64,000 bases of DNA, from contig SUXD01000009.1 of the NCBI GenBank assembly GCA_015061145.1, positions 1 to 64,000 of the forward strand, written 5' to 3'. Origin of the DNA: Bacteroidales bacterium (GTDB taxonomy: Bacteria; Bacteroidota; Bacteroidia; Bacteroidales; Paludibacteraceae). Both the position numbers and the translations under genes were made by a program. Numbering within the stretch: position 1 is the first letter of the stretch; the number at the start of each line of letters is the position of its first letter. The notes under the pieces were generated by a model that saw only the letters and a program-made list of their open reading frames with translations, was not told the origin of the DNA and searched no databases. This document shows positions 3,611 through 54,190 of the stretch, piece by piece.

Positions 3611-3870
3611 ATCAAATTAGTTAGCAGTTCTGAACTGTATAAAAAATGACATAATTAACGTTTACTTAACGTTTTGTTCTTGATGTACTAGAATCTTGCA
3701 AATTCAAAAAAACTTTGTCAAGACAAAGCAACAGTAGATGTTTCATGATGTATGTTATATCTCATGACATACAGCGTGGGCTTCTGCGTTGCTCGTTCTT
3801 ACAAAGTTGGGCAATGCAAGAGCCTTAGTACGTGGAACGACAACAAACAAGTTTCACGCTTTTTTTTTGT
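3611..3870 (+). promoter_or_regulatory. Structured leader or small RNA ahead of the phosphorothioation operon
   Basis: This gene-free stretch holds several potential hairpins in a row: CTTTGTC/GACAAAG (3713-3728); TGTATGT/ACATACA (3749-3755, 3767-3773); a 13-bp stem GCTTCTGCGTTGC/GCAATGCAAGAGC with two wobble pairs and one mismatch (3780-3792, 3811-3823); and the terminator hairpin that follows. A 27-codon reading frame begins at tandem ATGs (3745) and stops at TAG (3826-3828), two bases before the terminator stem. It may be an attenuator leader or a separate short RNA; neither is proven. Confidence 0.45.
3831..3868 (+). terminator. Intrinsic terminator just before the dndC-like gene
   Basis: CGTGGAAC (3831-3838) and GTTTCACG (3851-3858) form an 8-bp stem with one wobble pair, followed two bases later by nine T (3860-3868). 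The run ends 12 nt before the ATG, so expression of the operon must pass it. Confidence 0.75.
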
Positions 3871-3880
3871 CTTTTAGTAC

Positions 3881-5215
3881 ATGGATTTTATTAACAACAT
3901 AATTGACGAAATAATTGACCAATACATGTTCGCGGACAATTCCAAACGTCCGTGGATAATAGGATTTAGTGGAGGAAAAGATTCTACCGTAATGCTCCAA
4001 TTAGTATGGAAAGCACTGGAAAAAGCCAAGCACTTTCACGGATTTGTGGGGCGCGATGTCTATGTTGTAAGTAACGATACAATGATAGAAAACCCAATCA
4101 TTGTTGAGTATGTCAATGACGTGCTGAATAAAATAGAACAAGCCGCCGTTGAACAAGATATGCCAATTAGAGTAGTTAGAACAATTCCTCGGTTAGAAGA
4201 TTCATTATGGGTGAATATGATTGGGAAGGGTTATCCTGCACCTAATAACGCCTTTCGGTGGTGTACTGAGCGTCTAAAGATAAAACCAACCGCACGATTT
4301 ATTACAGAACAAGTTGATGCTTTCGGTGAAGCTATTATTTTAATAGGCACACGTTATGCAGAAAGTGCTAATCGCGCGAGAACGATGAAAAGCCACTCAA
4401 TAAAAGGTAAACGTCTCACTAAACATCCGATACAACCTAATACGTGGATGTATGCTCCAATACGATATTTAATGTTAGAGGAAGTATGGTATATAATTAA
4501 TTCGATGCCATCTCCCTGGGGAGCAGACAACAAACAATTGTTTCAAATATACGCTAATGCTTCTGCTGATGATTATGAATGCCCTGTTGTAGTTACTGAC
4601 ACAAAACATACTTCGTGTGGACAAAGCCGTTTTGGATGTTGGTTATGTACGGTTGTAAAAGAGGATAAATCTATGGCAGCCCTAATTAATAATGGTTTTG
4701 AATGGCTAAAACCATTATTGGCATATAGAGATTGGATTGTTGCCGAACGCAATAACATCAATAACCGAATGACAACAAGACGTAACGGAACAAAAGCCGT
4801 AAACGATATGGGCAGTTATACCCCAGTTTATAGGGCATTGATGTTGGAAAAACTGATGGAAACGCAGAAGGAAATACAACAAAATCATCCTAATGCACAA
4901 TTGATTACCAATCAGGAACTTATTGCAATACAAACAATATGGTATAGAGATTTCATTTTTGACTATAAAGTGTCAGAAATCTATCAAAGAATTTATAAAA
5001 CTGATTTCGATATGAAAGAGAACAACGAGAAACTCAAAAAAGAGGTCGATTTGCTGAAAGAAGTCTGCAAAGACAGTCCCAACAATTACGATTTGATACA
5101 AGAGTTGCTGACTCTACAAAAAAGCAAATCGTTATTGAATCGTAAACGTGGGTTAAAAACCGACATTGAAACACGCATCGAAAACTACATAAACAAAGAG
5201 AACAATGCAGATTAA
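3881..5215 (+). CDS. dndC: DndC-like DNA phosphorothioation sulfurtransferase
   Basis: A 444-residue PP-loop ATP pyrophosphatase of the PAPS-reductase superfamily, the DndC branch. In known Dnd systems DndC activates and transfers sulfur into the DNA backbone together with a cysteine desulfurase. The PP-loop SGGKDS lies at residues 30-35. RWCTERLKIKP holds Cys128, and TSCGQSRFGCWLC holds Cys246, Cys253 and Cys256; these four are the expected 4Fe-4S ligands. The end is helical and charged. The stop overlaps the next start by 11 bp. No dndA is adjacent, so a housekeeping IscS-type desulfurase would have to supply sulfur; dndB is also absent. The gene is visibly richer in A+T than tig-clp nearby, consistent with horizontal acquisition. 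Confidence 0.9.
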   Translation: MDFINNIIDEIIDQYMFADNSKRPWIIGFSGGKDSTVMLQLVWKALEKAKHFHGFVGRDVYVVSNDTMIENPIIVEYVNDVLNKIEQAAVEQDMPIRVVRTIPRLEDSLWVNMIGKGYPAPNNAFRWCTERLKIKPTARFITEQVDAFGEAIILIGTRYAESANRARTMKSHSIKGKRLTKHPIQPNTWMYAPIRYLMLEEVWYIINSMPSPWGADNKQLFQIYANASADDYECPVVVTDTKHTSCGQSRFGCWLCTVVKEDKSMAALINNGFEWLKPLLAYRDWIVAERNNINNRMTTRRNGTKAVNDMGSYTPVYRALMLEKLMETQKEIQQNHPNAQLITNQELIAIQTIWYRDFIFDYKVSEIYQRIYKTDFDMKENNEKLKKEVDLLKEVCKDSPNNYDLIQELLTLQKSKSLLNRKRGLKTDIETRIENYINKENNAD

Positions 5216-7322
5216 AGATATAACACTCAACAACTTCCGTATTTACAAAGGTATAAATACGATTAACCTTTTGCCGTCAAACGACAAAAATATCGTTGTA
5301 GTGAGCGGTAAAAACGGATTTGGCAAAACAACGTTTTTGATGTCATTGGTTTGGTGCTTGTATGGCAAGCAGATGGAACACGTCGACGAAATGTACAAGA
5401 AAGTTATTGAAGAAAGTGGCGGTTATACAAAATACATAGCGAAAACTTTGAACAATCAAGCCAAACAAGAAAACGAAACTAAATTTTCGGTGTCAGTGGT
5501 GTTCCTAGATGTGAAAATACCAGAAATAACGTGTAATGAGGTCCGAATAACAAGAACTTACGATGATATTACAAGTCAAGACCGCGTTGAAGTGCTGATT
5601 GATGGTTATCAAAACGAACTGATTAGAGAACTAACGACCGATGGGAAACAGGATGGCGAAGAAATATTTATCAGAGATTTCATATTACCTATTGAAGTAG
5701 CCAAGTTCTTCTTTTTTGATGCCGAAAAGATTGTTTCAATTGCAGAGAACAACTCACCCGAGCAACGCAAAATATTGAGCAAGGCTTATACTGAAGTTTT
5801 GGGAATCAAAAAATATGAGGATTTAAAAGACCAATTGGAAAGTCTGCAAGATGATTATCGTAAAAAATCAGCATCAAAAGAAGACCAACAGGCATTTAAT
5901 CAAATCGAAACTGACATAAAAAACAAAGAAATTGAGATCGACACTAATAGTGAACGTATCACAGAACTGCACAATGAAAAGGTTGAAAAGAAAAAAGAAT
6001 CTGACGAAATACAAATTCGTCTAATTCAAGATGGTTGTGTTATAACGCCAGAACAACTTGCAAATCTTAAAGAGAAAGAGGAAGAACAAGAACACAAAAT
6101 TGCCGATTTGCAATCGCAATTGAAAGAGCTTTACGATTTAATTCCTTTTGGTTTATCGGGAGAAGTTTTGAACGATGTGTATGAACAGATAAAAGATGAA
6201 AAAAACTTCAATGATAACAAGTTCAAGCAAGATGATGTGGAATCAAAAACAAAATCAATCTTGAATGATATTGAAATTGAGAAGAAAAACATTAAAAGTG
6301 TTATACCAACCGATGCACGTGATTTTTATGAGTTGCAAATAAAAAAACTGATACGTAAATATTTTTTCTCAAGTGCAGTAGATGTACCGACAGATTTCAA
6401 AGTGTTACACGAATTCACCGACACTCAAATTAATGAAACAAGTGCACTTATCGGTAATTTAAAAGGTAGTTTCAGTGCAGAGTTCAATAAAATAACTGAC
6501 GCTTACAATCGCGCAAGAAATGGTATTGACAAAATTCGCAGAGACATCAAAAAGGCAGAGAAGGATGCTGATGATGAATATACTGCCGATTTAAGACTAA
6601 AGAAGTCAAAGCTTGACAATAGGGTTTCGATGATAGACAACGAAATAGGTAGATTAGAGGAGCAAATAAGAACAATAAAAGAAGAAATTACCGCAGCTAA
6701 AAAACGACAAGAAGATTTGCGAAAAAAATTGGATGATTCAAGAAGCTACTCTGAAAAGGATAAAAAAACGCAAGAACTCGTTGCTAATCTTAAAGATTTC
6801 ATAAATAAATATAGGAATGAAACCAAGGAAAAACTGTCAGAGAACATTTTGAGTGAGTTGAATGCTCTTATGCACAAGAAGGGGTTCATTAAAAAAGTTG
6901 TTGTTGACATAAACCAGGAAGGCAACGACGTGGACATAAACCTATTAGACAATAATGGTCAAAAAATAGATAAAAGTGGTTTGTCGAAAGGAGAAAGCCA
7001 AATGTATGCCTCTGCTTTGCTCAAATCATTAGTTGATGAATCCGACATTGATTTCCCTGTTTTCATTGATAGTCCAATGCAAAAGTTTGATAGAGAACAT
7101 GCTGAAAATGTTATCAAAGAATTTTATCCCAAAGTATCTAACCAAGTCATAATATTCCCGTTGATTCACAAAGAATTAACAGAAGCAGAATATAATTTGT
7201 TAAAACCAAATGTAAGCAAGACTTATATTATCGACAATGTTGGCATATACGAGTCAAAATTTGTTGAAATTGAACCAGATTGTTTAATCAAAGAATACAA
7301 TGAGCGCTATGCAGCAGATTAA
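5205..7322 (+). CDS. dndD: DndD-like SMC/Rad50-type ATPase
   Basis: A 705-residue ABC-type ATPase with two head halves separated by long coiled coils, as in DndD. Walker A GKNGFGKTT is at 35-43, the ABC signature LSKGESQMY at 593-601 and Walker B PVFIDSP at 618-624. Residues roughly 180-330 and 430-560 are strongly charged, heptad-like coiled coil. No CxxC zinc hook is seen between the arms. In Dnd systems this ATPase is part of the DndCDE modification complex and is thought to act on DNA structure. It overlaps the gene before by 11 bp and the gene after by 23 bp, indicating translational coupling and a joint complex. Confidence 0.88.
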   Translation: MQIKDITLNNFRIYKGINTINLLPSNDKNIVVVSGKNGFGKTTFLMSLVWCLYGKQMEHVDEMYKKVIEESGGYTKYIAKTLNNQAKQENETKFSVSVVFLDVKIPEITCNEVRITRTYDDITSQDRVEVLIDGYQNELIRELTTDGKQDGEEIFIRDFILPIEVAKFFFFDAEKIVSIAENNSPEQRKILSKAYTEVLGIKKYEDLKDQLESLQDDYRKKSASKEDQQAFNQIETDIKNKEIEIDTNSERITELHNEKVEKKKESDEIQIRLIQDGCVITPEQLANLKEKEEEQEHKIADLQSQLKELYDLIPFGLSGEVLNDVYEQIKDEKNFNDNKFKQDDVESKTKSILNDIEIEKKNIKSVIPTDARDFYELQIKKLIRKYFFSSAVDVPTDFKVLHEFTDTQINETSALIGNLKGSFSAEFNKITDAYNRARNGIDKIRRDIKKAEKDADDEYTADLRLKKSKLDNRVSMIDNEIGRLEEQIRTIKEEITAAKKRQEDLRKKLDDSRSYSEKDKKTQELVANLKDFINKYRNETKEKLSENILSELNALMHKKGFIKKVVVDINQEGNDVDINLLDNNGQKIDKSGLSKGESQMYASALLKSLVDESDIDFPVFIDSPMQKFDREHAENVIKEFYPKVSNQVIIFPLIHKELTEAEYNLLKPNVSKTYIIDNVGIYESKFVEIEPDCLIKEYNERYAAD

Positions 7323-8883
7323 TATTAAAACATCAGAACAGAATAAGGATGTCGTTCGCAAACTAACGGCAAAACTACCAACAGGAACAAGCGAAAACGT
7401 AATCGCAAGAATTGCATTGGCTTATTCATTGGAAAGTGGCAAAAAATTTTCTTCTTCGGAATTTAACTGTTATGATTCAAAAGGAAAAGAGTATAAAGAC
7501 CATATTCTTTTCGACCCCAAGTACAGGGATTTATACATTGCTTTGATTTGTCAGCATTACGGCATCTATAAAACAGACGAGAATATACCAAAATATGTAA
7601 AACTGCATATTGACCATGGTCTTGAATTAATGGACAAACTTTTTGAAGGCAGCAACAACTATACTATCATTGATTTTTTAATTGACAATTTGGATACGGG
7701 AATTGCTCATTTGGAAAGTCATTCTGAATATGGTTCCGTTAAAAACAATAGTCAAAATATTGATAAAACAGTATTTGGAGAGCCTATAAAGATTTCGTTG
7801 GGTAATAAATTGGGTACAAACGAAGAAATAGTATTAGGTTTTAACAATACCGAGTTGTACAATAATAATCATATTGCTATTGCAGGAAATTCTGGAACAG
7901 GGAAAACTCAATTTGCGCTTTATTTATTGCGCGAAATAAGCAATCTGTCAAACCATCTAGTAAATTTCATTTATTTGGATTTTAAAGGATTAAAGGACGA
8001 TGATATAAAACAAATGGCTACTTTCTTTGAAAAAACCAGAACAACATTCATTGATGTACCCAATACACCCTTCCCTATAAACCCATTATCGTTTGTCGAT
8101 TGTTTTAATGACACAAACAAATCGATGGGCATTGATAAGTTCACCGACATTATATGCAAGTATTCAAATCTAGGACAAAAACAGAAAGGAAATCTTCGAA
8201 CAGCAATTAAGGAATGTTTTGAAGAAAAAAAACCTGGAGAATATCCAAATTTCAAAGAAATAAACGAAAAACTACTTGAAGTCGTTGGCGACAAAAGAGA
8301 CTCTCTTACTGAAATAATAGATGATTTAAGTCGTTACAATGTTTTTTCGGAAGAAAAAAATGCCAACAATTTCATAAATCAAAATATATATTTGTCTTTG
8401 TCGGGTGATTTGTCTGTATCTGTGAGATTTACATCTTTATTCTTAATAATAAATTACATTTACAATGTATTTATGAATATGGAGAACACGGGGGTAGAGA
8501 ATGGTTGTAGAGCAATGCGTTATGTTCTTTTAATAGATGAAGCACACGTTATTTTCAAGGAAAAGAAATATCACGATATTTTGGAAAAAATACTACGTGA
8601 AATACGTTCGAAAGGAGTTTCTGTAGTTTTGCTTTCACAAGGTGTTGAGGAATTTAATCAGTCTGCATTTGATTTTTCATCGATGTGTGAAATTTCATTT
8701 ATGTTTGATGTGAAGGACAAAAACAATACAAAAGCGATAAATAAGTTTTTAGGAATCAGTGAATCAGATGGAGCAAAAGCCTATCGTAGCCTCGAAAAAA
8801 TACAGAAAGGACAGGCAATTTCTAATATGAAAGAATTTACAAAAGGAGAACTATTTGAGATAAAACAATTCTACAAAAATTGA
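7300..8883 (+). CDS. DndE domain fused to a HerA/FtsK-type ATPase
   Basis: A 527-residue fusion. Residues ~5-115 resemble DndE (DUF1832): INIKTSEQNKDVVRKL at the start, a CYDSKGKEY turn, LYIALICQHYG and KLHIDHGLELM, matching the order of conserved segments in stand-alone DndE, which is normally only about 110-130 residues. Residues ~155-527 form a RecA-fold HerA-like ATPase with Walker A GNSGTGKTQ (196-204), Walker B VLLIDEAH (409-416) and a LLSQG sensor (444-448). DndE is known to bind DNA; HerA-type proteins are hexameric DNA translocases, often paired with nucleases in defence. Here both parts are one polypeptide, overlapping dndD. A second ATG three codons in is also possible. No DndFGH restriction genes are present in the window. 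Confidence 0.85.
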   Translation: MSAMQQINIKTSEQNKDVVRKLTAKLPTGTSENVIARIALAYSLESGKKFSSSEFNCYDSKGKEYKDHILFDPKYRDLYIALICQHYGIYKTDENIPKYVKLHIDHGLELMDKLFEGSNNYTIIDFLIDNLDTGIAHLESHSEYGSVKNNSQNIDKTVFGEPIKISLGNKLGTNEEIVLGFNNTELYNNNHIAIAGNSGTGKTQFALYLLREISNLSNHLVNFIYLDFKGLKDDDIKQMATFFEKTRTTFIDVPNTPFPINPLSFVDCFNDTNKSMGIDKFTDIICKYSNLGQKQKGNLRTAIKECFEEKKPGEYPNFKEINEKLLEVVGDKRDSLTEIIDDLSRYNVFSEEKNANNFINQNIYLSLSGDLSVSVRFTSLFLIINYIYNVFMNMENTGVENGCRAMRYVLLIDEAHVIFKEKKYHDILEKILREIRSKGVSVVLLSQGVEEFNQSAFDFSSMCEISFMFDVKDKNNTKAINKFLGISESDGAKAYRSLEKIQKGQAISNMKEFTKGELFEIKQFYKN

Positions 8884-9012: not shown

Positions 9013-11808
9013 TCAATCGTCAACTATCTTTTGGCCCAATATATTATATTCGACGCCATCTTTCAGAATTATCACTCGACCATTGCGGATAATCTTCTGC
9101 ACTTTCGACGTTGTGCCGTCTTCCGGCAGGTCACCAATCCCGACAGTGCCGTTCGCATAAATTGTTTTTGTCATCTGGTTATTGTTCATGTCGCTCTCTT
9201 CGAAAGTTCCGCCGTTGTCGTTCACCCAAGCCATCACAGTGTAGGTGGCATTCGGTCCGCATGTCCAATAAGCATTCGGTGTGCCGCCGTTTATTGTAAG
9301 GTCAACCGAAGCGCCTGCAGGGATAGACGCATAATGCGTATCGCTCCATGTAGCGCCGTCAACGCCTGTCACATGAAAACTCAATCCATGCTTCACATTA
9401 TTAGGAGTAGCAGCATCGCCCTGATTTTTGACAGTGGCATAGAAAGTCACATGGTCGCCCTCTTTAGGATTGGCTGGTGTCCAGAAGAAATCCGTCACTA
9501 TCATATCAGGTTTGCCAGTCACCGGTGCAGGTTCACCGTCCTCTATTATCACATCGTCGAAATACGCCGAGAAATTTCCGGCATTTCCTTTGTAGGCCAT
9601 CAGTATGCCCGAGATAGTCTTTCCCGTACAAGAGGTGCCCAGCGAAAATTCCACAAGCTCCATTGCGCCTGTTTGTGTCGATACCGTCACTACCGGCGAA
9701 CCATTCATATCGCTCAAACGGGTATTGTCGGAGAAAAGCAGATCCACAAATGCGTTTTTGCCATTTTCGTTGGAAGCGTATTTGTAGTAGCTGACTTTCA
9801 TGTTGTCTTTCACCACAATCTTCGTTTCGTTGGTTTTGTAGGCATAATCGGCGCCAGCGCTGGCATTACCCTCGAACAACACGCTATAATCGCCGCTACG
9901 GCGTTGCGCATTTTTCACTATTGCGCAGTTGGCGTTAGACATGTTGTTGTTTTTCAGCACACTGTTATTGTAGAAACAAGGGTCAACAGGCAAATCGATG
10001 CTATAGTCGGGTTGCTGCCCTTGTCCTTTTCCTGAACCATTCTTGTTGATGGTAGAAAGTTTGCTTTCGAAACTGTTACGGAAATACACCGGTCCTTCGG
10101 AATAAGGCACAGGCACCCCAGCAGTGAACGTCTTCTCGCCGCGAAGCACTTGTGCGGCATACGAAGCCAAACGCAGATAAAAGTCGCTCGAAACCCAGAT
10201 ACCGTCGCGTGAGAATGTCTCGAAATACTGATCTACTGGGATGTCGAAATAATCGACCGCACCCTTTATCAAGTTGGTACTTTCCTCGAACTCATCCACC
10301 ATAGCGAAATAAACGGAGTTCAAGCCCATTTCGTAGGCGTTGGTGATTTGCGCCCAAAGCAGTTCGCCGCCACGACGGAAATTCTGCAACAAGCGAAGGT
10401 CATCAGTAAGCCAGTTGGCACTGCCCGCAAACACCACAGGAAGATAATCCATGCCATTAGCATCGCAATAGGCTTTGTCGTTCAGCATTGTATTCTTGTA
10501 ATTTCTTGCACTGGCAATATCGCCGCCATAAACACCGACAGTCCAAGGCGAAACGCAATCAAGTTTCTTGTATGCAGTGGCATAAGCGCCGCCGCTGCTC
10601 CAGCCATTAGGCGTACCGCCTATCACATAACATCCTCTGGAATGCAGAAAATCTATGATACCGTTGTTCTGCTCGGGAGTAGCCATGTCGTAACCGATGC
10701 CCCATAGTTCCACAACCGGTTTGCCATCCACTGTAGCGTAATTATCCGAAGAAGTCAACGCGCGAATCTGCTCTATTTCATACACCCAGTCCATCTTGAT
10801 TCGTTGCACTATGGTAGCATCTGAACCGTTCAGATCGTAGCAAATATAGAACAAACGCCCTGTAGCTTCGCAAGCATTCTTGACATTCGTCAAGTGCGAT
10901 TTATCCGATTCGGTGACAGACTTGCCTATGCCACCCACAAAACGTTGCACAGCCACGCCGTCGAAACCGGCCGTTTGCATCCACTGCATCTGTTTGTTGA
11001 TGATATAAGCATCTTTGGAGTTGTAAAGTTTGGTTGGCTGTCCATTGCCCAAATTGCCAAAGTTCGTTGCATACATATAATTATCATCATACTCCGAGAT
11101 ATCAGGGAAACTCGACACATCTACACCATTGTACATGTGAAATCCGGGACCCGGCTTATGTCCGTATGTCCAGTGCACCCAGTCAGAATCGTTCGGACCG
11201 GCTTCGTGCCAAATCTGATAACCGCCGAATGAGCGTCCCTTGAACTGGTTGGAAGGCAAGTTCCGCTTGGCAGGAATCGGTTCGTTATCGGGGTCGAAAG
11301 TGCCAAACGCCAAGGCTATCTCCTTAATGTAGTTGTCGCTTCCGCTATATCCCAATCGGATATCACCGCCAGAGTTCATTGTTCCGCGGAAATTCGCATC
11401 GGTCAGCGCAACGATGGTTGTCACCCAACCGTCAGCATTCACTTTAGTGAAATCGGCGCCCGCGTAATCGCTGGACGTGCCGTTGTAATTGAACCAAAGC
11501 GCATTGGAATTGTTGCCGTAATAAGTGATTTTAATCATCACTTGCCGTTGCGAAGAAGGCACCGCATTGCGGTCGAACTTCACGTACATGAATTTCCCGG
11601 AAGGAATTTTACGACAGGCCGAACCACCCATAACAGCCGCCTCGGTGTAGGGTTCATCGTACGGATTGTCATTGGCGACATACGAAGCCGACTGGCTCGT
11701 ACTGTTCGCAAAATTAACATAAGCCACCGGCGTAGGGAAATTCAATGCCGCATACGACGAGAGCAAAGCCCCTGCCCAAAGCAAAGGGAGAAGTAAAAAT
11801 TTTTTCAT
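9013..11808 (-). CDS. Secreted GH71/99-like glycosidase with CARDB domain and short sorting tail
   Basis: A 931-residue exported multidomain protein. A signal peptide (residues 1-20) is followed by a beta-sandwich domain (~22-170), a catalytic-type region of the glycoside hydrolase 71/99-like superfamily (~185-560; GYQIWHEAGPND, MQTAGFDGVAVQRF, PVVELWGIGYD), a second beta-sandwich (~590-750), a CARDB domain (~755-885) with KPDMIVTDFFWTP and a terminal motif KIIRNGRVIILKDGVEYNI - LGQKI. That tail resembles the short form of T9SS-type C-termini common in Bacteroidales. The family includes endo-alpha-mannosidases and alpha-1,3-glucanases; which one applies here is unknown. It is monocistronic, with its own terminator. 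Confidence 0.75.
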   Translation of the reverse strand: MKKFLLLPLLWAGALLSSYAALNFPTPVAYVNFANSTSQSASYVANDNPYDEPYTEAAVMGGSACRKIPSGKFMYVKFDRNAVPSSQRQVMIKITYYGNNSNALWFNYNGTSSDYAGADFTKVNADGWVTTIVALTDANFRGTMNSGGDIRLGYSGSDNYIKEIALAFGTFDPDNEPIPAKRNLPSNQFKGRSFGGYQIWHEAGPNDSDWVHWTYGHKPGPGFHMYNGVDVSSFPDISEYDDNYMYATNFGNLGNGQPTKLYNSKDAYIINKQMQWMQTAGFDGVAVQRFVGGIGKSVTESDKSHLTNVKNACEATGRLFYICYDLNGSDATIVQRIKMDWVYEIEQIRALTSSDNYATVDGKPVVELWGIGYDMATPEQNNGIIDFLHSRGCYVIGGTPNGWSSGGAYATAYKKLDCVSPWTVGVYGGDIASARNYKNTMLNDKAYCDANGMDYLPVVFAGSANWLTDDLRLLQNFRRGGELLWAQITNAYEMGLNSVYFAMVDEFEESTNLIKGAVDYFDIPVDQYFETFSRDGIWVSSDFYLRLASYAAQVLRGEKTFTAGVPVPYSEGPVYFRNSFESKLSTINKNGSGKGQGQQPDYSIDLPVDPCFYNNSVLKNNNMSNANCAIVKNAQRRSGDYSVLFEGNASAGADYAYKTNETKIVVKDNMKVSYYKYASNENGKNAFVDLLFSDNTRLSDMNGSPVVTVSTQTGAMELVEFSLGTSCTGKTISGILMAYKGNAGNFSAYFDDVIIEDGEPAPVTGKPDMIVTDFFWTPANPKEGDHVTFYATVKNQGDAATPNNVKHGLSFHVTGVDGATWSDTHYASIPAGASVDLTINGGTPNAYWTCGPNATYTVMAWVNDNGGTFEESDMNNNQMTKTIYANGTVGIGDLPEDGTTSKVQKIIRNGRVIILKDGVEYNILGQKIVDD

Positions 11809-51862: not shown

Positions 51863-54190
51863 TTATTTCTTTTTTATCAAGACCTTCCAATAATCTTCAA
51901 CCTTATCCACCGAAAGAACTTCGTGACCCTCTTCGCGCACCGAACCTGGCACATTGTTAATTGGTTGCCCATCGTCAAGGAATATTTCGAGCAACTGCCC
52001 CGACTGCATTGCAGCCAACGCTATTTTTGTCTTCACAAAGTTCATCGGGCATGCTACACCTCTGAAATCTTTTTTTACATCAGCACCGCCCCCCTTATTC
52101 TCATCCTTGGTCAGTTCCGTTTTTTGAGGGTTGGCAGTAGCCGCTGTCTTGAACTGCAGCGAATCATCCATACCGGCATAAAGTTCGTTGACTTTGTCGG
52201 CCAATGCTACGACCTGCTCCCTATATGCAGCCAACGGCTCGGCATGGCGGGCTTTCTCAACAATGACCTTGAAATCGTCAGAAACGATACCCGCATCAAT
52301 AAACAATTTCTCAAAGTCATTATACACTTCATCGTCGGTTCTTGGATCGGCTCCTCGTGTAACAAGCAGCATACGAGAAGCAGAGAACACTATGTCGTGC
52401 AACAGTTTCTCGATGTCGGCTCCACGCTGTTGCAAAGCCGCATATTTCTCTTTGATAGTAGCCTGATCCAGTTCGATAATGTCGAACAAACCGGCCGAGC
52501 ACTCTGCTTGCCCATGACTGTTCAGTGAAAAAACAGCATCTGCACCCCAATCAAAGTAGTAATTCTTGTCCTCGTCAAACGTTGGCACATCCTTATATTT
52601 TGAGATTTTTTGCTTGATGACATCCGCCCCTTCTGACCGGACAAAGGCATCATAGCCATCGTACTTGTCTTTCACCTGCAAATAGTGTCCTAAATAGTCG
52701 ACGACGAACTGCGGAATATCCTTTGCCGCCAGATACCCTAAAGCCTCTGCCAATTCTGTTTTCCCATGCGTGCGTGCCCATACCGTATAGGCGGGGTAAG
52801 GATGGTCGCCGACACGCCCGATGCGCCCGCTGAAACCCAAGTCGCTCCAAGCGCTCTGCGCACAGGAGTTAGAGCAACCGTTGATGTTAATCTTAATGTC
52901 GGGCAACTGGTCAAAATCCAGCCCGCTCTTCTCCAGTTGGCGGCGAATACCACTTACCAGTCCTTTAGGCAGACAAATGCCCAGACGACAAGTATCGGCT
53001 CCGGTACAGGAAGTCAGATTATTAAGAATGACCGGCGCATCGAGTGCCAGCCCCAACGCACGGAAGAACTGATAGACATTGGGCAGATATTCCTCAGGAA
53101 TATTGCGCAACTGCATATTCTGGCGAGGCGTGAAACGAATCACATCATTGCCGAATGGTTCCAGAAAATCCGCTATCTCAGCAAATATTTCAGGCGACGC
53201 ATTACCGTGCAAGAAAGGAATGACAGCGCAAAATCCGTTCCCTGCACTCTGTTTTTGCACATATCGGCGTTTCCATGCCGCAAACGACGCGCTCTCGTCC
53301 ACTGCCGGAGCAAATGAAGGGGTCTTGTATTCGAACGGCAACACTGCAGGCTCAAAATCAAGCGAAGCGTCGCCAACAAGTTTACCATACTCGTCCAAGT
53401 ATAACCTTACTGTTTCTTCTTCGCCGTTCTTATAGAATATATGACGTATACGCGCCTTGTACCTGTTTTTTCTGTTGCCATTCAGATTGAAGAAATTCTT
53501 GGCTGCTTTGGCAGCACGGAACAAATCCTTTTCGGGCAGAAAACTGAACACCTGCCATCCCTTGTGGGGATTGGAGGCCACACTGCCTCCCAACAAAACC
53601 TTGAAGCCACGCTTCCCGCCTTTGACAAGAGGAATCAGCCCCAAGTCTGCTACTAACGAGAAGTTAGCATCTTCTTCGTTGATGTCGAAAGCTATTTTCA
53701 ACTTGCGAGGCATTGTCCATGAGTCTTTCTCTGCTATCAGACGAGTTGTAAGACCTACTGCATAGGGGTACGGGTCGAACGCCTGTCGGCTGCTGATGCC
53801 GCCCTGCTCGTTTACAAGCATATTACGTATAGTATTACCACCGCCTCCTTGTGTGGACAAGCCCACCTCCTGCAACGACAGCAAAGCCTTTGTTGCATCG
53901 TCTATATCTACATCGTGAATTTGCAACTCCTGACGCGTGGTGATGTGAATGTGCGAGCATCGGACTTGCGCTCCGACCTCAGCCACTCTGCGCAACTGAC
54001 CTGGCGTAATGAGACCGCCAACACAGCGGATGCGCAACATATAATGTCCATCCTGACGTTGCTCGTAAATACCCATCGGTACACGATTCGACTTGAACTG
54101 ACCGCCAGTTATTTCGCCTGCTTTATACTTCTCGATGATTGACTTGTTGTACTCAATATCTGCAATCAATGTGTCTGGTATTCTATACAT
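51863..54190 (-). CDS. Siroheme sulfite/nitrite reductase fused to a C-terminal TusA domain
   Basis: A 775-residue fusion. Residues 1-~480 are a ferredoxin-type nitrite/sulfite reductase with two ferredoxin-like and two siroheme/4Fe-4S half domains; ligands are Cys395 and Cys401 (CTGADTC) and Cys439 and Cys443 (CSNSC). Residues ~485-690 are helical with no clear family. Residues ~705-775 are a TusA-like sulfur carrier (DFRGVACPMNFVKTK, Cys714). The fusion favours sulfite as substrate, with the sulfur carrier as acceptor or donor, but nitrite cannot be excluded. The start has a strong ribosome-binding site (GGAGGAG), and an operator-like palindrome lies on its promoter. Confidence 0.87.
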   Translation of the reverse strand: MYRIPDTLIADIEYNKSIIEKYKAGEITGGQFKSNRVPMGIYEQRQDGHYMLRIRCVGGLITPGQLRRVAEVGAQVRCSHIHITTRQELQIHDVDIDDATKALLSLQEVGLSTQGGGGNTIRNMLVNEQGGISSRQAFDPYPYAVGLTTRLIAEKDSWTMPRKLKIAFDINEEDANFSLVADLGLIPLVKGGKRGFKVLLGGSVASNPHKGWQVFSFLPEKDLFRAAKAAKNFFNLNGNRKNRYKARIRHIFYKNGEEETVRLYLDEYGKLVGDASLDFEPAVLPFEYKTPSFAPAVDESASFAAWKRRYVQKQSAGNGFCAVIPFLHGNASPEIFAEIADFLEPFGNDVIRFTPRQNMQLRNIPEEYLPNVYQFFRALGLALDAPVILNNLTSCTGADTCRLGICLPKGLVSGIRRQLEKSGLDFDQLPDIKININGCSNSCAQSAWSDLGFSGRIGRVGDHPYPAYTVWARTHGKTELAEALGYLAAKDIPQFVVDYLGHYLQVKDKYDGYDAFVRSEGADVIKQKISKYKDVPTFDEDKNYYFDWGADAVFSLNSHGQAECSAGLFDIIELDQATIKEKYAALQQRGADIEKLLHDIVFSASRMLLVTRGADPRTDDEVYNDFEKLFIDAGIVSDDFKVIVEKARHAEPLAAYREQVVALADKVNELYAGMDDSLQFKTAATANPQKTELTKDENKGGGADVKKDFRGVACPMNFVKTKIALAAMQSGQLLEIFLDDGQPINNVPGSVREEGHEVLSVDKVEDYWKVLIKKK

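Follow-up and report, generated by a model that had tools for sequence, protein, structure and literature searches.

A probable phosphorothioation cassette with a DndE-motor fusion in a Bacteroidales genome, and the modules that follow its relatives

A contig of a Bacteroidales bacterium (GenBank assembly GCA_015061145.1, contig SUXD01000009.1) carries, within the stretch of 64,000 nucleotides analysed here (hereinafter, the window), three overlapping genes for a DndC-like protein, a DndD-like protein and a fusion of DndE with a HerA-type ATPase. The question raised by this arrangement is whether the three proteins together make a phosphorothioate (PT) mark, with the motor serving the modification, or whether the motor and the DndD protein themselves act against invading DNA. 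As judged from sequence comparison and structural modeling, the locus is probably a horizontally acquired DndC-DndD-DndEi cassette for PT modification that belongs to the already described DndEi type, with the motor built into DndE.

The three genes and the fusion protein

The cassette comprises three intact, overlapping ORFs in the ORF calls for the window. These genes and the other features discussed below are:

3774..3859, plus strand: imperfect hairpin 5' of dndC; the repeat is dispersed, with four matches in the genome, its own included
3881..5215, plus strand: dndC, PP-loop sulfurtransferase (TIGR03183, 428 bits against a cut-off of 290)
4229..4261, plus strand: predicted DndC specificity loop GYPAPNNAFRW, within dndC
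5205..7322, plus strand: dndD, coiled-coil ABC ATPase of the DndD type (TIGR03185, 271 bits against a cut-off of 246)
7300..8883, plus strand: dndEi, DndE fused to a HerA/FtsK (DndH-C-like) ATPase, 527 aa
7324..7638, plus strand: DndE domain of DndEi, residues 9-113 (PF08870)
7780..8880, plus strand: HerA/FtsK motor of DndEi, residues 161-527, from sequence profiles and comparison of the AlphaFold structure

An earlier note, made from the DNA letters and ORF translations, had described the three overlapping genes, the first coding for a DndC-like protein with a PP-loop and four cysteines and the second for a DndD-like protein with SMC heads. The gene arrangement is as the note had it, and so are the DndC identity and the PP-loop (SGGKDST, nt 3968-3988), which is invariant among 36 aligned DndC sequences; the count of cysteines has to be corrected, given that five (128, 234, 246, 253 and 256) are invariant in the same alignment. 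The DndD assignment likewise stands, but the protein, a DndD-type ABC ATPase with a coiled coil, is not an SMC protein proper. Its Walker A motif (nt 5304-5333), signature LSKGE (nt 6981-6995) and Walker B motif (nt 7056-7076) are conserved among the homologues. The best PADLOC label for this protein is PbeC, an identity that we reject because the CxC zinc hook is present in none of 35 DndD sequences (the window protein and 34 homologues) and the score against the DndD equivalog TIGR03185 is above the cut-off.

The claim that the first ~115 residues of the third protein are DndE is borne out by the PF08870 match to residues 9-113, which scores 72-75 bits against a cut-off of 25 (72.3 bits at E 5e-20), and this domain also matches the solved DndE structure 7x4e (E 3.8e-5). 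Against TIGR03184, the equivalog of the separate small DndE, the protein scores 39.8 bits, below the cut-off of 71.85. The claim of a HerA-type ATPase with intact Walker motifs is equally sound: in residues ~161-527, AAA_10 and HerA_C are above cut-off, and the PADLOC model of the DndH C-terminal ATPase matches at 1.2e-28. The Walker A motif (AGNSGTGKT, residues 195-203, nt 7882-7908), the Walker B motif (VLLIDEAH, residues 409-416, nt 8524-8547), the arginine-finger region (LREIRSKG, nt 8593-8616) and the sensor glutamine Q447 (in LLSQG, nt 8629-8643) are all intact and are conserved in 42 relatives. In the AlphaFold model of DndEi (mean pLDDT 81.9, pTM 0.69), the motor has as its nearest solved structure the C-terminal domain of DndH, 7es4 (VIA Z 37.6, rmsd 2.7 over 354 residues), the next match having a Z of 28.5; further structural neighbours are SIR2-HerA and DUF4297-HerA. 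Going by the relatives, translation of dndEi may start at the in-frame ATG at 7309 instead of 7300.

The predicted specificity loop of DndC reads Asn-Asn-Ala in the window protein and Asn-Asn/Ser-x in all 36 aligned sequences. Three classes of DndC loops have been published, with Thr-Arg-Ser reported for GAAC/GTTC, and the window loop falls outside all three. We would predict either that these cores read another motif or that the proposed loop-to-motif code is incomplete, given that GAAC/GTTC is what the studied DndEi responds to; the recognition motif of the window cassette may thus differ from that of the studied protein. The conserved Asn-Asn loop provides a direct test case for this code.

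Genomic setting and origin of the cassette

The genome is a 96% complete draft of 2.15 Mb in 40 contigs. The genes around the cassette are unremarkable: to its left are those for a GH30 glycosidase and an acetyl-CoA hydrolase/transferase, and to its right those for a CARDB-domain protein, trigger factor and ClpP (ClpP being recognized by its sequence and by the gene order of a relative). The gene next to dndEi, 130 bp away on the opposite strand, encodes the secreted-type CARDB-domain protein. No nuclease is found inside the cassette or adjoining it, and a search 3' of dndEi for the remnant of a lost partner gave no match: the downstream slot is empty in the window.

The cassette has a GC content of 34% vs 45% in the rest of the window and aligns over ~5.0 kb, at 85% DNA identity, with the locus of a rumen relative (L058), whose flanks are dissimilar from those in the window; because of this compositional difference and the confinement of the identity to the cassette, horizontal acquisition is most likely. 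Carriage by a plasmid or phage was considered and rejected, the matches being only ~21-28% identical, HerA/DptH-like and covering at most 68% of the query. For an empty-site comparison, trigger factor was located in five genomes of the same family, where the gene order differs. The hairpin upstream of dndC was also dismissed as a mobility signal, given that it is a dispersed repeat (other copies at G000 C34:3976, C36:175216 and C24:26309) of which the inspected copies do not flank obvious defence genes; Rfam returned nothing credible for it. In some of the relatives, the cassette has hairpin repeats of similar appearance at its flanks.

Profile search of all 40 contigs detects a single DndE, the fusion itself. 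The earlier note had reported DndA, DndB and DndFGH to be absent and had named, as grounds against its reading, the lack of a DndE match or a separate dndE with dndFGH elsewhere, this locus being silent and the DNA free of PT. By genome profile search, there is no match to DndB (PF14072) and no full-length DndH: DndEi itself matches only positions 1322-1706 of the 1715 in the DndH profile, and the second match to this model in the genome is a short one, to another HerA-type protein. With the DndE domain confirmed, no second dndE or DndH was found. SufS-family desulfurases are encoded in the genome, one of them adjoining SufE on contig C9. Elsewhere in the window, the minus strand (51863-54190) encodes a 775-aa protein with sulfite/nitrite reductase domains and a C-terminal TusA sulfurtransferase domain.

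Related loci and the genes downstream of dndEi

Through near relatives of the window protein, 43 related loci (L028-L070), nearly all from Bacteroidota, were fetched and their ORFs called mechanically. Wherever readable, they keep the C-D-Ei order and the overlaps. What follows the core is far less uniform. Directly 3' of dndEi, 23 of the 42 readable loci carry a further module, of at least three two-gene kinds overall: a ParB-like protein with a restriction-like protein in 13 loci, L032 being counted although its ParB-like frame is interrupted close to the end; a GHKL ATPase with Methyltransf_35 in five; and DndB in another five, where it stands behind a GIY-YIG-like protein in four and behind a membrane-like protein in L033, whose 166-aa neighbour we rejected as a GIY-YIG candidate. 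On a tree of 42 DndEi sequences, the module labels require 23 changes vs a mean of 21.6 for shuffled labels (L033 was placed with the GIY-YIG group in this run and the RhuM of L063 was counted apart), that is, no fewer than when shuffled, so the type of module does not track the core phylogeny. The loci L036 and L037 share a 5.2 kb core that is 91% identical, differ in their modules and become similar again beyond them. L031 retains, after dndEi (11611-11664), 55 bp that correspond to the 3'-terminal part of the L030 restriction-like gene, a deletion scar and thereby evidence of module loss.

The restriction-like gene is present in four of 393 genomes surveyed within the order, and three of these four have DndEi. 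With DndEi in 25 of the 393, a count that includes a small number of remote HerA-type proteins (24-25% identical) and so renders the test, if anything, conservative in its background, this co-occurrence has a hypergeometric p of ~9e-4. Methyltransf_35 of the module type is found in one of the 393, together with DndEi. A ParB-like/restriction-like pair with no dndEi just upstream is present as well (G256:C316; L082:363-2412). As for the restriction-like partner itself, its putative restriction fold comes from a weak match to MspJI (Foldseek E 8e-3, VIA Z 6.4, tied with unrelated rows), and the canonical lysine position is not kept (QCACG). A HARE-HTH + Mrr restriction enzyme follows some of the modules (L046:13708-14526; also L038 and L060).

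In two loci, the gene that abuts dndC encodes SufE, by Pfam in L070 (6145-6567) and as its homologue in L069 (6144-6548), which suggests a route of sulfur supply where DndA is missing.

We tentatively propose, with somewhat more doubt than confidence, that a fixed DndCD-DndEi core is followed by a recombination-prone slot in which the ParB-like/restriction-like, GHKL/Methyltransf_35 and GIY-YIG/DndB modules interchange and from which they sometimes drop out, so that the sulfur mark stands alone, as in the window, and that the Asn-Asn-Ala loop would read DNA unlike the three published classes. Since the same core occurs with several modules or with none among near-identical relatives, such loci allow one to ask whether any of the downstream genes reads the sulfur mark, and which one.

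Function of the cassette and its place among known systems

In the modification pathway that we envisage, the housekeeping SufS with SufE would supply sulfur in place of DndA, DndC would activate the sulfur and then transfer it, the DndE part of DndEi would contact DNA, and the fused HerA/FtsK motor would use ATP to move along the duplex, or to open it, at the target, leading to sulfur insertion. The SufS-SufE source, the target sequence and the modification-only state of this genome are inferred. Because no restriction gene adjoins the window copy, its mark probably comes about without a dedicated nuclease.

A modification-type cassette is favoured because the PT motifs are complete, the motor has a published role in modification and the cassette neither contains nor adjoins a nuclease gene. 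The earlier note had left two branches open, modification alone with a translocase built in and an SMC-HerA pair acting as the effector. The intact signatures of DndC and DndD, the desulfurase pair and the lack of a nuclease fit the former. Under the latter, the locus would be a self-contained defence system: DndD and DndEi would recognize or translocate the DNA of invaders and double as the effector, PT being only a mark of self. HerA motors do occur in several defence systems, including the structural neighbours named above, and the best match of the motor is to the motor of DndH, a restriction protein. However, none of the three proteins has a nuclease or toxic domain by Pfam profile search, the nuclease-like genes of the relatives, their putative effectors, are encoded separately downstream, and the title of the DndEi report (doi 10.1074/jbc.M115.694018) ties the motor to modification; the branch is thus unsupported, and we consider it very unlikely.

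Only slightly less improbable, in our estimate, is a restriction-modification system of which the cassette forms the modifying half, the restriction gene being located elsewhere in the genome. The nuclease-like or regulator modules just 3' of dndEi in the relatives, the one relative with the scar of a lost restriction gene and the draft state of the genome are all compatible with such a split, but of the candidates that the genome search covered, namely, the restriction-like and Methyltransf_35 partners, DndB and DndH, none is present. Least plausible is an inactive remnant that makes no PT, as the empty partner slot and the solitary copy might suggest: the three frames are intact, the catalytic residues are invariant and DndEi is 88-94% identical to its rumen relatives. 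PT modification by the cassette therefore remains our preferred reading.

The novelty of the DndE-HerA fusion that was implied in the earlier note has to be abandoned, for DndEi has been in the literature since 2016, and again in 2020 and 2024. The studied DndEi protein is reportedly that of Riemerella anatipestifer. The title of the 2016 study (Zheng et al. 2016, J Biol Chem 291:1492, doi 10.1074/jbc.M115.694018) names a helicase activity of DndEi that is essential for PT modification and an ATPase that is stimulated by GAAC/GTTC DNA. Subsequently, dndEi was noted in PT clusters of Bacteroidales (PMC7464106), and Rakesh, Aravind and Krishnan (2024, PMC10853773) describe HerA/FtsK domains of DndH clade 3 that are joined to DndE and have a DndD-related ATPase as neighbour. 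The window locus is a further, ordinary member of this published system, and its value is mainly comparative. Compared by description, it shares with the DndEi type the DndE joined to a helicase/ATPase domain and encoded with dnd modification genes, and it differs in a DndC loop unlike the published GAAC/GTTC class and in the lack of an adjacent restriction partner. With the clade 3 proteins it shares the identical domain fusion, the DndD-type ABC ATPase alongside and the kinship to DndH motors; the ParB-like/restriction-like and GHKL/Methyltransf_35 modules and SufE are not named in the consulted portion of the main text of PMC10853773. Novelty, if any, may lie in the related loci, that is, in the exchangeable downstream modules, SufE beside dndC and the Asn-Asn-Ala loop.

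Canonical DndABCDE systems have in common with the window DndC, DndD, the DndE domain and, by implication, the sulfur chemistry, whereas the window lacks DndA and DndB, and its DndE is not a separate small protein. The motor has the fold of the DndH C-terminal domain, but DndEi lacks the N-terminal multidomain part of the DndH of DndFGH restriction systems, restriction nuclease included. In contrast to the HerA-NurA and SIR2-HerA defence pairs, there is no partner effector gene beside the window herA, the next gene being the opposite-strand one for the CARDB protein. The PbeABCD and CxC ABC ATPase systems also pair an ABC ATPase with a DndE domain, in line with the PADLOC label, but the window differs from them in the missing CxC hook, the presence of DndC and the DndD equivalog score.

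More distant arrangements were encountered as well. L095, L096 and L097 contain pairs of DndD and DndEi-like proteins with no DndC match within the fetched stretches, and in L096 and L097 an upstream protein combines helicase-associated and sigma-70 region 4 domains. In L099 (1944-11401), an ABC ATPase and a 528-aa HerA-type protein that has no Pfam DndE match are encoded between two SF2 helicase proteins.
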